A DNA stretch of 33,035 nucleotides from a virus, in IMG/VR virus record IMGVR_UViG_3300011115_000542, positions 1 through 33,035 of that record; one strand, given 5' to 3'. The notes under the pieces were generated by a model. That model made no database searches and was not told where the DNA came from. It saw only the letters and a program-made list of their open reading frames with translations. Shown one piece after another: positions 2,206-15,807 of the stretch. Each line of letters starts with the position of its first letter. Within the stretch, counting starts at the first letter, position 1. Both the position numbers and the translations under genes were made by a program.

Positions 2206-2581
2206 ACCAACAAAGTATGATGAAGAATATTGTGAGAAATTAATAGAACACATGGCAGAGGGGTATTCCTTTGAATCATTTGGTGGAATAATAGAGGTTT
2301 CAGAAGATACTTTATACGAATGGGCAAAAGTACATGAGAAATTTTCCGACTCCAAGAAGATAGGAACACAAAAAAGTATGATTTGGTGGGAGCAAATGGG
2401 TAGGAAAGGCATGATAAATGAAATACCTTTCTTTAATGATAGGATTTGGAGATTGAATATGATTAATAGGTTTAGGTCTAAATGGACCGATGGAACTAAG
2501 AACGAAAATAATGATACTATTAAAAAAGAAATAATTGTCAGATACGCAAGAGATACCGATAACCCTGCCGAATCCACATAA
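2192..2581 (+). CDS. terS: Terminase small subunit
   Basis: A 129-residue protein opening with GRPTKYDEEYCEKLIEHM, the standard start of small terminase subunits, then a helix-turn-helix (about 24-45: SFESFGGIIEVSEDTLYEW). The middle (KSMIWWEQMGRKGM) and the C-terminal region would form the oligomerisation and TerL-contact parts. TerS recognises the phage DNA and feeds it to TerL. It overlaps the preceding gene by 14 nt and TerL by 47 nt, which is usual for this pair. Confidence 0.9.
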   Translation: MNAGRPTKYDEEYCEKLIEHMAEGYSFESFGGIIEVSEDTLYEWAKVHEKFSDSKKIGTQKSMIWWEQMGRKGMINEIPFFNDRIWRLNMINRFRSKWTDGTKNENNDTIKKEIIVRYARDTDNPAEST

Positions 2582-3710
2582 AGGACAAAAGCAAGTATTG
2601 AATTGCAAAAAGCGGTTTATTACTTTAATGTGCGGCAGAAGATGGGGTAAATCTTTAATTTCTCAAAGCATTGCTATTGAAGATGCCATAGAAGGTAAGC
2701 AGGTTGCTTATGTAACTCCTACATATCAGTTAGCTAAAGTTTTCTATGATGATTTAATTAAGATAATCCCAAAGGATTTATATAATGGAAATAAATCTGA
2801 TTTAGTTTTAGAATTTATAACAGGTGGTAGGATTAGATTCTTTACGGGTGAAAGGTTGGATAATTTTAGAGGTTTAAAGTTTCATACTGCTATTATAGAT
2901 GAAGCATCTTACATTCCTAATTTAGAAGATGGATGGCTACAAAGTATAAGACCTACACTAACTGATTATAAAGGGAGAGCTATTTTTCTATCTACACCTA
3001 AAGGGAAAAACTATTTTTATTCCTTGTTTGTTAAGTCTGAAATAGATTGGCAGTCTTTTAAATTTAGCACTTATGATAACCCATACATTGATCCATCAGA
3101 AATAGATGATGCTAGGATGCAGCTCCCAGAAGTTGTATTTGAACAAGAGTATATGGCTAATCCTGCCGAGAATGCTAGTAACCCATTTGGCTCTGCATTC
3201 ATTCGTTCCTGTATTCATCCTATTACTACTAATGAAGTAGTTTGCTATGGAATAGATTTGGCTAAGTCTGTGGATTGGACTTGTATTATAGGACTAGATA
3301 TAAATGGAATGGTATGTTACTATGATAGATTCCAGATGGATTGGCATAATACTAAGCAAAACATATTAAGACTACCAAGAAAGCCTATTTTAATTGATAG
3401 CACAGGGGTAGGCGACCCTATATTAGAGGACCTAATGCGAGAGGGGATACAAATACAGGGTTTAAAGTTTACTAGTCAATCTAAGCAGCAACTGATGGAG
3501 GGATTACAGGCTGCTATCCATCAAAACCTTATTAAGTTCCCTTCTGGAGTTATTACACAAGAGTTAGAAGTATTTGAATATACTTATACTGCAAGAGGGG
3601 TTAGATACTCAGCACCTAGTGGATTCCATGATGATACTGTTATAGCATTGGCTCTTGCATGGCAGAACTTTGCCTTAAAACGAGGTAGTGGCAGATACTC
3701 TTTTGTTTGA
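2535..3710 (+). CDS. terL: Terminase large subunit (ATPase and nuclease)
   Basis: A 391-residue motor protein. Walker A is GRRWGKS (34-40) and Walker B is AIIDEA (119-124) with E123 as catalytic glutamate; the coupling motif FLSTPKG follows. The RNase-H-like nuclease has its acidic residues in YGIDLAKSVDW (D241), LIDSTGVGD (D288) and GFHDDTVIAL (D366/D367). It cuts concatemers and pumps DNA into the prohead through the portal. The frame has a TAA stop at 2532-2534, immediately before a TTG at 2535; the next ATG is at Walker A and therefore too late. TTG is thus the likely start, coupled to TerS translation. Confidence 0.95.
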   Translation: MSDTQEIPITLPNPHKGQKQVLNCKKRFITLMCGRRWGKSLISQSIAIEDAIEGKQVAYVTPTYQLAKVFYDDLIKIIPKDLYNGNKSDLVLEFITGGRIRFFTGERLDNFRGLKFHTAIIDEASYIPNLEDGWLQSIRPTLTDYKGRAIFLSTPKGKNYFYSLFVKSEIDWQSFKFSTYDNPYIDPSEIDDARMQLPEVVFEQEYMANPAENASNPFGSAFIRSCIHPITTNEVVCYGIDLAKSVDWTCIIGLDINGMVCYYDRFQMDWHNTKQNILRLPRKPILIDSTGVGDPILEDLMREGIQIQGLKFTSQSKQQLMEGLQAAIHQNLIKFPSGVITQELEVFEYTYTARGVRYSAPSGFHDDTVIALALAWQNFALKRGSGRYSFV

Positions 3711-3905
3711 TTTGGCTGAGTTTAAAACTCTATACCTAGCCAAAACCTGTCACAAATATCTCCCAAATTTGCGACAAATACCATGTTTGGCTTTTATTTA
3801 CTTCTTATGTTTGGAAAAATAATTTAAAAATATTTTAATATTTTGTCTTTTGTATGTGGAAAGGTTGTATATTTGATATATCAATTAACAATCAAACTAC
3901 GAAAA
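3711..3905 (+). terminator. Post-terL intergenic region with two stem-loops
   Basis: The first structure pairs TTTGGCT (3711-3717) with AGCCAAA (3738-3744) and encloses the palindrome GAGTTTAAAACTC (3718-3730). The second pairs TGTCaCAAAT (3748-3757) with ATTTGcGACA (3767-3776) across one mismatch. Neither is followed at once by a long T run, so termination is plausible but not certain. The rest of the gap holds the promoter at 3842-3875. Confidence 0.5.
3842..3875 (+). promoter_or_regulatory. Bacteroidota-type promoter P1
   Basis: A -33 TTTG at 3842-3845 and a -7 TATATTTG at 3868-3875 are separated by 22 nt, matching the Bacteroidota sigma-A pattern TTTG ... TAnnTTTG. It lies 30 nt ahead of the ATG at 3906. 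It closely resembles the promoter at 26762-26795, including the 12-mer GTTGTATATTTG and the same spacing. Confidence 0.75.
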
Positions 3906-4091
3906 ATGAAAAATTTATCAATCCACTTTACAACATCTTATGGTCGTTTTATTATTAAAACTACTCATTACAACAAAAGCATTGCCTGTACTACTACTAA
4001 CACCGAAGCAATAGATTATGCTAGAGATGGTAAACTATGGGCTATCAAAGAATTAAGAAATGAGATTATTAGAAAAAACAAATTAAACTAA
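3906..4091 (+). CDS. Small hypothetical early-type protein
   Basis: A 61-residue protein starting MKNLSIHFTTSYGRF. An upstream start at 3843 would run through the promoter, so the ATG at 3906 is preferred. The N-terminal half looks beta-rich, and the C-terminal half is a charged helix ending RNEIIRKNKLN. It is the first gene behind P1 in a run of very small genes, a typical place for early host-takeover proteins. No family recognised. Confidence 0.65.
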   Translation: MKNLSIHFTTSYGRFIIKTTHYNKSIACTTTNTEAIDYARDGKLWAIKELRNEIIRKNKLN

Positions 4092-4095
4092 ATAT

Positions 4096-4245
4096 ATGTC
4101 TTATCAAGATTGGCTTAGAGAAAAAGGTTACCTTACTACTCCAGAGGAAGATGCGGAGTTAGAGAATGGATTTGAAGATAGAGAAACTGCTAACCGCCTT
4201 GCAGATGAACAGGCTGAATTATCATTAATAAATTTATCAGAATGA
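4096..4245 (+). CDS. Small acidic protein, 49 aa
   Basis: Begins MSYQDWLREKGYLTTPEE and is rich in Glu and Asp over a helical body. It starts 4 nt after the previous stop and overlaps the next gene by ATGA. Probably co-transcribed from P1. No family recognised. Confidence 0.6.
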   Translation: MSYQDWLREKGYLTTPEEDAELENGFEDRETANRLADEQAELSLINLSE

Positions 4246-4310
4246 AAAACGTATTAACCACTCTTGCAGTTGTATTAGTTATCCTGCTTATTATGTTAGC
4301 AGACAATTAA
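4242..4310 (+). CDS. 22-residue membrane peptide
   Basis: Begins MKNVLTTLAVVLVILLIM and ends ADN: one hydrophobic helix with a Lys near the start. It is coupled by ATGA to the 49-residue gene. Its size and composition fit a single-pass inner-membrane micropeptide, but being so short it could be a chance frame. The tight coupling is the main support. Confidence 0.5.
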   Translation: MKNVLTTLAVVLVILLIMLADN

Positions 4311-4319
4311 AAAATTACT

Positions 4320-4562
4320 ATGATAGCAGAATTACACTTTAATTTGGATGATGCAGATGATTCAATGGAGTATACAAGATGCGTAAAAGCAACTGAGATG
4401 GCTTTAGTCCTTTGGGAGTTAATGCATAATAGCAAAAAGACTTTAGAGTGGGCAATGGAAGCTGATACTATTAACAGGTACGATGCACTAGATATGGTGT
4501 TTGAAAGAATTAGCGAGTTATTAGAAGAACACGATATTAATGTTAATAAACTAATCAATTAG
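4320..4562 (+). CDS. Conserved small phage protein, 80 aa
   Basis: Begins MIAELHFNLDDADDSMEYTRCVKA and continues as an amphipathic helical protein (EMALVLWELMHNSKKTLEW). I recall the start xFNLDDxDDxxxxxRxxKxxxMALVLWE from a recurrent phage family in which this protein is always uncharacterised. It starts 9 nt after the membrane peptide and ends the P1 gene run. Function unknown. Confidence 0.75.
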   Translation: MIAELHFNLDDADDSMEYTRCVKATEMALVLWELMHNSKKTLEWAMEADTINRYDALDMVFERISELLEEHDINVNKLIN

Positions 4563-4777
4563 GGTACAAATTATCCCCTGTTTCTTATAAATGTTAAAAA
4601 TAACAAATTTATGAATTAAACTTATTTACTATCTACTACTGAAAACGTAGTAAATCGCAGTTAAGTTAATGGGGAAAAATACTAAACATTTGACACTAAT
4701 TTTAAAAAGTGTTTTTTATTTAAATCAAATAACCTTTAGGTATTTAAACAAGATAACATACCAATTCAGTAATAAAT

Positions 4778-4803
4778 CTGATATATATACATAATCATTT
4801 CGG
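4778..4803 (+). repeat. 26-bp direct repeat, copy 1
   Basis: The segment from CTGATATATATAC through TAATCATTTCGG is repeated at 5414-5439 with one difference (A against C at the 14th base). Both copies run straight into a stem-loop that opens with TTCGG. No third copy was seen. Confidence 0.85.
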
Positions 4804-4880
4804 GCTTTGCGAAGTTGCTAAACCCGATGCTCAATTTTAGCAGAATGTGTCTGCCTACTTTTGCCAAACCCGTGTTATGT
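4789..4880. other. Long imperfect cruciform (attC-like or structured RNA)
   Basis: Three nested pairings are visible: ACATAA (4789-4794) with TTATGT (4875-4880); CGGGcTTTG (4801-4809) with CAAACCCG (4865-4872), leaving one bulged C; and GCTAAA (4817-4822) with TTTAGC (4836-4841). A local hairpin GCAGA/TCTGC (4840-4854) competes with the inner stem. A T7 run starts at 4886. A single-strand recombination site of the integron attC kind, a structured RNA or a complex terminator would all fit. The core-site consensus of classical attC (GTTRRRY) is not met exactly. Confidence 0.45.
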
Positions 4881-4986
4881 TGTCGTTTTTTTCTTTATTT
4901 TTTGTGCGTTGGGTGTATTTTTTAGTGTTGATTATCAATAAGTTAGAAACTATTTTAAAAATAAATCAAAAATACTTTGAAAAATG

Positions 4987-5017
4987 TTTGCAAGTATCAA
5001 AAGTTTATCTATCTTTG
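4987..5017 (+). promoter_or_regulatory. Bacteroidota-type promoter P2
   Basis: TTTG at 4987-4990 and TATCTTTG at 5010-5017 are spaced by 19 nt, a near-ideal match to the Bacteroidota -33/-7 pattern. It points at the gene starting at 5061 and lies inside the segment bounded by the direct repeats. Confidence 0.8.
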
Positions 5018-5060
5018 TATCGTTGTAAGCAATTAAGCACAACACTAAAAAATAAACAAA

Positions 5061-5249
5061 ATGAAAAACTACGAAGTAACACTATTATTGGTTGTAAATC
5101 CTTCAAGAGATATTGATTTAGACCAACCCGAAACAAAAAGAGTTGAATTTAATGTAGATGCTAATTCCGAAGATGAAGCAAGAGTAAAGGCAAAAGAATT
5201 AGAAACATCAGGACTATCAGTTTGGGAAAGTTGGGCAAATGAAAACTAA
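5061..5249 (+). CDS. Small hypothetical protein of the repeat-flanked cassette
   Basis: A 62-residue protein, MKNYEVTLLLVVNPSR..., with the look of a small alpha/beta domain: a strand, an acidic strand (KRVEFNVDANS), then a helix (SEDEARVKAKELE) and a final WESW element. It sits behind promoter P2 and overlaps the next gene by 11 nt. No family recognised. Confidence 0.7.
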   Translation: MKNYEVTLLLVVNPSRDIDLDQPETKRVEFNVDANSEDEARVKAKELETSGLSVWESWANEN

Positions 5250-5394
5250 AAAAGAAAACAGAGGCGGTAAAAGAAAAGGTGCAGGTCGTAAAAAACTTGC
5301 ACCTACTAAAACTGTTTCATTTAGAGTTAAAGAATCAGATGTTGAAGGTGTAAAAAATGTTGTATCGGAGTTCTTGGGTGGGGAAAAAAAATAA
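5239..5394 (+). CDS. Small basic ribbon-helix-helix-like DNA-binding protein, 51 aa
   Basis: The N-terminus is strongly basic (KTKKENRGGKRKGAGRKK). A strand KTVSFRV (24-30) and a helix (SDVEGVKNVVSEFL) follow. GKRKGAGRxK ahead of a TxxxFRV strand is the usual layout of short ribbon-helix-helix regulators in phages. At 51 residues it is short but complete for that fold, with a second helix that is barely present. It could repress P2 or the repeat-linked promoter downstream. DNA binding is likely; target unknown. Confidence 0.6.
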   Translation: MKTKKENRGGKRKGAGRKKLAPTKTVSFRVKESDVEGVKNVVSEFLGGEKK

Positions 5395-5413
5395 AGAAAA
5401 AAATGCGACATAA

Positions 5414-5439
5414 CTGATATATATACCTAATCATTTCGG
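5414..5439 (+). repeat. 26-bp direct repeat, copy 2
   Basis: Matches 4778-4803 at 25 of 26 bases. It ends in TTCGG, which opens a perfect 6-bp hairpin TTCGGA/TCCGAA with loop AACAA. The copy ends 26 nt before the GTG start at 5466, so it may also act as a promoter or operator. Confidence 0.85.
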
Positions 5440-5465
5440 AAACAATCCGAATTAAACTTAATAAA

Positions 5466-5678
5466 GTGAACAAAGACCAAAAGAAGTATGTAGATGAATC
5501 TTACAAATACTATCCTGTTTCAATTATGGCAGCAGAAATGGGTTTAGATTATATAGAGGTAAAGGCTTATTGTGAAAAAAAAGAATACATTTCTCCTAGA
5601 AATAAGTATAAGAAACCACCAGAGGAAGTAAAAAGTAGTATATTCAACGTAGATAATTATAAAACCTTAACCATTTAA
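5466..5678 (+). CDS. Small HTH-like protein (GTG start)
   Basis: A 70-residue protein. The stretch YPVSIMAAEMGLDYIEVKAYCEKKEYISPR (about 16-45) has the spacing of a helix-turn-helix: a helix, a turn at MGLD, then a recognition-like helix. GTG is the only sensible start; the next Met is inside the putative HTH. It follows repeat copy 2 and precedes the next gene by 2 nt. DNA binding is inferred only from the pattern. Confidence 0.6.
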   Translation: MNKDQKKYVDESYKYYPVSIMAAEMGLDYIEVKAYCEKKEYISPRNKYKKPPEEVKSSIFNVDNYKTLTI

Positions 5679-6990: not shown

Positions 6991-7073
6991 CGGCTTTACA
7001 TTATCTAAATACTTTATCCTATCTAAAAGCGAAAGCAGATTATGATAGAGAGCAGCATAGGAAGTTAAATTAA
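6870..7073 (+). CDS. Tail chaperone -1 frame extension (gpT-like)
   Basis: After the proposed slip, the frame adds a linker (DGSETSIRGGSNF) and then a compact protein-like segment, MRYFGWQYCTKIVAEHEG and ATEEAYNLTALHYLNTL, ending DREQHRKLN. Its residue choice is that of a real domain and differs from typical shadow frames. It could instead be an independent gene from the ATG at 6909, or a sequencing error in the T9 run may have split one gene. The stop overlaps the start of the hairpin at 7073-7096. Confidence 0.55.
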   Translation, partial: DGSETSIRGGSNFMRYFGWQYCTKIVAEHEGIATEEAYNLTALHYLNTLSYLKAKADYDREQHRKLN

Positions 7074-7096
7074 ACCCCTGCCATTTGGTGGGGGTT
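7073..7096 (+). terminator. GC-rich stem-loop after the chaperone
   Basis: AACCCC (7073-7078) pairs with GGGGTT (7091-7096), with inner TG/TG wobbles and CC/GG around an ATTT loop. The same 24 bases occur at 15743-15766. There is only a weak T tail here (AGTTATTTT), so it may be a partial terminator or a transcript-end stabiliser. Confidence 0.6.
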
Positions 7097-7129
7097 AGTT
7101 ATTTTAAGCCTATAAGTATATTTATTGAC

Positions 7130-15742: not shown

Positions 15743-15766
15743 AACCCCTGCCATTTGGTGGGGGTT
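15743..15766 (+). terminator. Intrinsic terminator after the tail tube gene
   Basis: A 10-bp stem with TG/GT wobbles: AACCCC (15743-15748) with GGGGTT (15761-15766) and CC/GG around ATTT, followed by TTTT. It is the same 24 bases as at 7073-7096 but with a proper T run. Confidence 0.85.
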
Positions 15767-15807
15767 TTTTATTTTGTAAACATTCTTAGTTATTTATATT
15801 TATTGAT

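Follow-up and report, generated by a model that had tools for sequence, protein, structure and literature searches.

What is the genetic unit lying between two 26-bp direct repeats in the genome of a tailed phage, and how did it get there? The window, i.e., the whole stretch of 33,035 bases under analysis, is a virus contig whose first 127 bases are the same as its last 127 bases, encodes a terminase large subunit (positions 2535-3710) and belongs to a tailed freshwater Bacteroidota phage. The sequence-only reading of this DNA had viewed the interval between the repeats either as a cassette that can be inserted or excised and bears an attC-like site, or as a region where the repeats serve as operators for a small basic protein. 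From the evidence presented below, it is highly probable that positions 4795-5413 correspond to an integron-type gene cassette of 619 bp, read on the minus strand, which a tailed Bacteroidota phage captured by site-specific recombination with a recombinase supplied in trans.

The unit sits in an accessory-gene locus (3710-5466) extending from the terminase gene to a 70-aa gene at 5466, the length of which ranges from 241 to 2208 bp among 62 relatives; because of this variability, the locus 3' of the terminase was rejected as a conserved site. In the nearest relatives found, whose terminase is 76% identical, the locus is also variable and an exact 17-mer search did not recover the 26-bp repeat. 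None of 80 relatives carries an attC of the Bacteroidota family described below, no relative with an empty site was found among those searched, and no recombinase or IntI integrase is encoded in the window. Elsewhere in the window, two nearly identical terminator-like hairpins are present at 7073-7105 and 15743-15775 (AACCCCTGCCATTTGGTGGGGGTT).

A Family of attC Sites in Bacteroidota and Their Phages

The nested imperfect hairpin proposed at 4789-4880, which had been likened to an attC cruciform, does exist and lies within a diverged member of a Bacteroidota family of attC recombination sites (4786-4885, minus strand). The covariance model R1 matches this site with 48.0 bits and an E-value of 9e-8, the latter being somewhat flattered since the window is among the 35 sequences from which R1 was built; the plus strand gave no hit. 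Independently of R1, the hairpin is tied to the family by an 18-mer, GCYAAACCCGTGTTATGT, which matches 26 IMG/VR stretches and, among GTDB species genomes, 14 contigs, every one from Bacteroidota. Of 118 Bacteroidota genomes drawn, 23 possess a site (E<=1e-5, strict filters), and the family is widespread in Bacteroidota and their phages.

Folded alone as DNA, the hairpin is of moderate stability (z of -2.4 for the minus strand and -1.8 for the plus strand); compared across the family, the structure is conserved and covarying, where 11 of the 22 pairs in the alignment have changed on both sides and two-sided changes amount to 91 cells, versus 35 upon shuffling and at most 30 with the partner slid. 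The family is an imperfect inverted repeat with an R'' box (..AAC), an R' box (GTT..) and a folded stem, the arms being laid out around a variable stem as ACATAAC-ACGGGTTTGGCAAAA..stem..CTTCGCCAAGCCCGAAAACG-TTANNN. Extrahelical bases confer strand selectivity on attC sites, and the alignment offers a candidate for one, a C of CTTCGCC that has no partner in the facing GGCAAAA. The orientation of the sites was settled from arrays adjoining recombinases. In the window, the R'' box, i.e., the 3' cassette end, is found at 4874-4885 (plus strand; CGACAACATAAC on the minus strand), while R' reads AATGA|TTATG where the family has AACG|TTANNN, with a non-consensus crossover base; with AATGATTATG as its R', the window copy is therefore degenerate. 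A search of the region against Rfam returned sub-threshold chance matches only and no family, and a BLAST of one attC against plasmids gave no match.

Limits, Copies and Gene Content of the Cassette

The two ends of an integron cassette, TT.. at its start and R'' at its finish, are complementary, as both derive from one circle. This rule was measured by taking the six bases that follow GTT in one site and comparing them with the six that precede AAC in the next site, the latter read as reverse complement. Over 85 cassettes, the mean match was 5.02/6 with 58 perfect cases, against 2.89 when shuffled (0/10,000), and R'' and R' within a single attC matched at chance (3.03 vs 2.87). A second sample gave 4.77 for 30 viral and 5.07 for 29 bacterial cassettes, shuffled values being around 3. 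Loci with sites on both strands numbered 0/40 in the first sample and 1/71 in the second, the only such locus being L307.

In the window, the ends of the mobile unit 4795-5413, namely GCGACATAA and GTTATGTTGTCG, are mutually complementary as in integron cassettes, over 5/6 bases. They belong to an inverted pair that the earlier reading had missed, i.e., GTTATGTTGTCGTTTTTTTCTTTATTTTTT at 4874-4903 and a near complement ending GCGACATAAC at 5385-5414; this pair and the cassette copies point to a 5' cassette end, complementary to R'', at 5405-5413 (plus strand; TTATGTCGC on the minus strand). The proposed unit is real but its orientation and limits had to be revised, the cassette being oriented from TTATGTCGC at 5413 towards the attC end at 4795, limits which are set by analogy with the AACG|TTA junctions of Muminvirus described below.

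Searching with the second gene of the cassette (ORF2) retrieved three viral contigs (L088, L128, and L129; 88-91% identity) with the same promoter segment and ORF2, next to an ORF1 that is unrelated in each. L128 shares both cassette ends with the window (GTTATGTTGTCG... and ...GCGACATAAC), followed by other sequence, and L129 shares the right end, also followed by other sequence; a preceding cassette in L128 has the ends GTTATCGGC/GCCGATAAC. In L088 (IMGVR_UViG_3300010885_035158), eight tRNA genes are scattered over 14.7 kb.

The promoter described as ideal, of the Bacteroidota type TTTG-N19-TATCTTTG (4987-5017, plus strand), recurs in each of the four copies of the cassette, and both genes announced between the repeats are present on the plus strand, namely (i) ORF1 (5061-5249, 62 aa), without family and occupying the slot that differs among copies, and (ii) ORF2 (5239-5394, 51 aa), the constant gene, with GGKRKGAGRKK and TKTVSFRV motifs. 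The conserved promoter would drive a changeable first gene together with a constant small basic protein. The suggestion that the latter resembles ribbon-helix-helix proteins agrees with its TKTVSFRV motif but not with its predicted structure, a single helix (pLDDT 80). Pfam and PHROGs searches brought nothing useful for either ORF, ORF2 matching PHROGs of unknown function only, and the cassette had no match in a phage collection in DNA and protein searches. Proteins with GGKRKGAGRK that resemble ORF2 are common in phage contigs L127-L176 and lie near attC sites in L130-L133, L135-L138, and L140.

Exact Gain and Loss of Cassettes in Sister Phages

The attC family is also present in the Flavobacterium phages mumin, filifjonk, and tooticki of another genus, Muminvirus, which are described as virulent isolates (PMC7077304) and whose shared DNA blocks are 99.6-100% identical. 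Where mumin reads CCACGAGAACG|TTAGTGGC, filifjonk reads CCACGAGAACG|TTATAAGC...GCGAAACG|TTAGTGGC and has two additional cassettes; where tooticki reads CTGATAACG|TTAACCGC, mumin reads CTGATAACG|TTATGCAAC...CCAAACG|TTAACCGC and has one additional cassette. These indels between isolates fall exactly at AACG|TTA, with exchange at the G|TT core, and are the products expected from recombination at the integron cut point; a recombinase would have caused them. The claim of an insertable cassette thereby gains support, alongside the attC family, the complementary ends and the other copies. The Muminvirus arrays (L221-L223) are rich in DNA methyltransferases. Since methyltransferase differences have been linked to reduced plating between hosts (PMC7077304), cassette exchange might affect host range in these phages.

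The Direct Repeats and the Alternative Explanations

The two direct repeats were correctly described, with copies on the plus strand at 4778-4803 and 5414-5439 that differ by one base; no further copy occurs in the window, and such a pair arose in 0 of 100 shuffles. The TTCGG stem-loops next to both copies exist as well, the left one being the attC arm. Copy 1 is composite, its first 17 bp being phage flank and its last 9 bp the attC outer arm, and copy 2 is phage flank. Joining the flanks without 4795-5413 gives CTGATATATATACATAA|CTGATATATATACCTAA, a 17-bp tandem repeat which on the minus strand reads ATCAG|TTATGT, containing a G|TT core. The other 9 bp of the repeat, TCATTTCGG, are shared with the outer arm of attC, a place taken by CGTTTTCGG or CGGTTTCGG in the family; at three positions, attC therefore agrees with the phage flank and not with the family consensus. 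A search of IMG/VR for the repeat pattern gave three contigs, whose flanks are unrelated.

The 26-mer is absent from the copies in L088, L128, and L129, and the repeats that were proposed to bound the cassette are unlikely to be where it recombines. The same observation bears on two other explanations. A small transposon or IS-like element, with the 26-bp repeats as target-site duplication, would account for a self-contained unit flanked by direct repeats, but the other copies keep the cassette limits without such repeats, no transposase is encoded, the ends obey the integron rule and 26 bp far exceeds usual target duplications, all of which makes this explanation very improbable. Equally hard to credit is the view in which the repeats act as operator or promoter sequences of the phage to which the small basic protein binds, with the hairpin as a terminator or regulatory RNA. 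What favours it is that ORF2 has a basic N-terminus and a TKTVSFRV motif; the operator part of the earlier claim is nonetheless disfavoured because the repeats are missing from the three other copies, as is the exact 17-mer from the relatives, and the hairpin, which matched no Rfam family, belongs to a recombination-site family forming long arrays.

Transfer of the unit out of another cassette-bearing phage through ordinary recombination, homologous or illegitimate, with no integron enzyme acting at the window site, deserves closer attention, considering the 26-bp identity at both ends, the altered outer bases of attC, the mosaicism of phages and the lack of an integrase in the window. It is rather unlikely given that the ends of the unit fall on recombinase cut points and not on random break points. 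Under the favoured explanation, i.e., cassette capture by site-specific recombination, the cassette would have entered the phage at a sequence resembling the G|TT core, ATCAG|TTATGT on the minus strand, the catalyst being supplied in trans, probably by an IntI/XerA-like tyrosine recombinase of the kind heading attC arrays in Bacteroidota hosts. The repeats would then be local sequence made up of the two 17-bp phage repeats and the 9 bp common with the attC arm, perhaps brought about by gene conversion from the flank after insertion; capture by homologous recombination is another reading of their origin. As the outer attC bases are altered, the unit in the window may no longer excise.

Inverted Polarity of Cassettes in Viruses

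A gene facing its attC is usual, rather than strictly defining, for integron cassettes. In the window, the genes point against attC, which therefore lies at their 5' side. Considering the nearest gene on the R'' side of each attC, the numbers on the same and opposite strand were 20/2 for bacterial sites, 2/75 for viral sites and 0/20 for Muminvirus isolates in a first sample, and 48/1 for bacterial and 6/75 for viral sites in a second sample drawn through the other attC arm and a genome draw (Fisher p 1e-27, such p-values being nominal because the loci in a sample are not all independent). Genes thus run towards their attC in bacterial members of the family but not in the window and the viral cassettes. 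In the first sample, the exceptions come from L113 and L125, two MAG contigs of short length and possibly of viral origin. With a terminase match in 13 of the 32 viral records tested, some contigs counted as viral are short or unproven, while the viral status of the Muminvirus isolates and of the window is beyond doubt.

Moreover, 35/79 and 35/81 viral sites, against 4/51 and 2/49 bacterial sites, include an ATG from which a long ORF reads out across the R'' side (thresholds of 50 and 80 aa past the end of the site). For instance, the methyltransferase gp010 of filifjonk is annotated as starting at MIDRITEQPFCQTRV.... This inversion, with start codons in the recombination site, provides a simple and testable rule parting phage from bacterial cassettes.

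Phage-borne integrons, attCs and CALINs are already known, as reported by Qi et al. (2023; PMC9892861), according to whom IntI1 recombined 5/6 of the phage attCs assayed. Like the window, the phages treated there carry attC cassettes without integrase, theirs being virulent; they include Polaribacter P12002L, a phage of Bacteroidota whose cassettes encode methyltransferases, and model R1 detected no member of the attC family of the window in P12002L. No description of polarity against attC or of start codons inside attC, as found here in viral cassettes, was found there, and the strings Flavobacter* and Bacteroid* do not occur in its main text (PMC9892861). In the open-access journal articles searched, no account was found of this Bacteroidota attC family, and neither the inverted phage polarity nor the recombinase association was found described; these three elements are what appears new here.

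Bacterial Arrays and the Linked Recombinase

Sites of the family occur in 14/14 genomes examined. In a Chitinophagaceae MAG, 31 sites, all on one strand, extend over ~93 kb of one contig (C8). Another contig of this MAG (L199-L204), C7, carries a recombinase together with two sites directed towards its end; if the two contigs join, their polarity would allow one superintegron of >100 kb. A tyrosine recombinase lies within ~5 kb of the sites in five genomes, namely G003, G005 (Belliella), G008, G009, and G014 (Fluviicola), and in 5/5 the array starts on the recombinase side. In two genomes, AAG|TTATGTGCAAC adjoins the recombinase and is a candidate attI. Such arrays resemble sedentary chromosomal integrons of the Vibrio and Xanthomonas type, i.e., long one-strand arrays with a recombinase at the head, genes co-oriented with attC and complementary cassette ends, but differ in a recombinase devoid of the ~40-aa IntI insertion.

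The linked recombinases match the IntI model in two pieces and score under the cut-off of TIGR02249, which no protein of the 14 genomes passed. Their best NCBIfam match is NF040815 (XerA-type, "site-specific tyrosine recombinase/integron integrase") with 200-224 bits, one of three exceeding the cut-off of 220. XerA is a chromosome dimer resolvase; in contrast, the array-linked gene heads cassette arrays and encodes an extra N-terminal domain of ~80 residues. Between the basic patch and HxLRH, the linked recombinases have 58-59 residues, compared with 99-101 in IntI and 65-66 in Xer, and lack the ~40-residue insertion specific to IntI. In a tree, they group with IntI on one side of the branch leading to the Xer proteins of their hosts (100/100).

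That a recombinase without the additional domain would move this attC family is the most provocative proposition here, since this domain is described as necessary for activity in the title of Messier and Roy (2001), as listed in PMC2426708, and called essential for integron function elsewhere (PMC8138268); the recombinase and the sites are linked by position, and a different enzyme could do the work. On balance, it seems somewhat probable that Bacteroidota harbour an integron-like system with such a recombinase along with a separate phage pool of turned-round cassettes, where attC would be located 5' and often provide the start codon and an N-terminal tail, and from which phages would gain and lose cassettes, many encoding DNA methyltransferases, via host recombinases in trans.

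As regards detection, IntegronFinder 2.0 reported for Bacteroidetes, where only In0 elements were previously recorded, one complete integron in Salinibacter (PMC9024848), and the attC models available for 11 taxa omit Bacteroidetes (PMC8352920). Detection built on IntI models and attC models of other phyla is predicted to underestimate Bacteroidota integrons. A copy of the recombinase is also encoded on plasmid NZ_CP041688.1 of Chryseobacterium sp. SNU WT5 (L220), with an attC 1.35 kb downstream, which is possibly a mobile integron-like element of Bacteroidota. In a Fluviicola MAG (L126, 5756-5906), two tRNA-like genes, one called with a 4-base anticodon loop and the other as tRNA-Gln, lie in a cassette between a 460-aa ORF and its attC.
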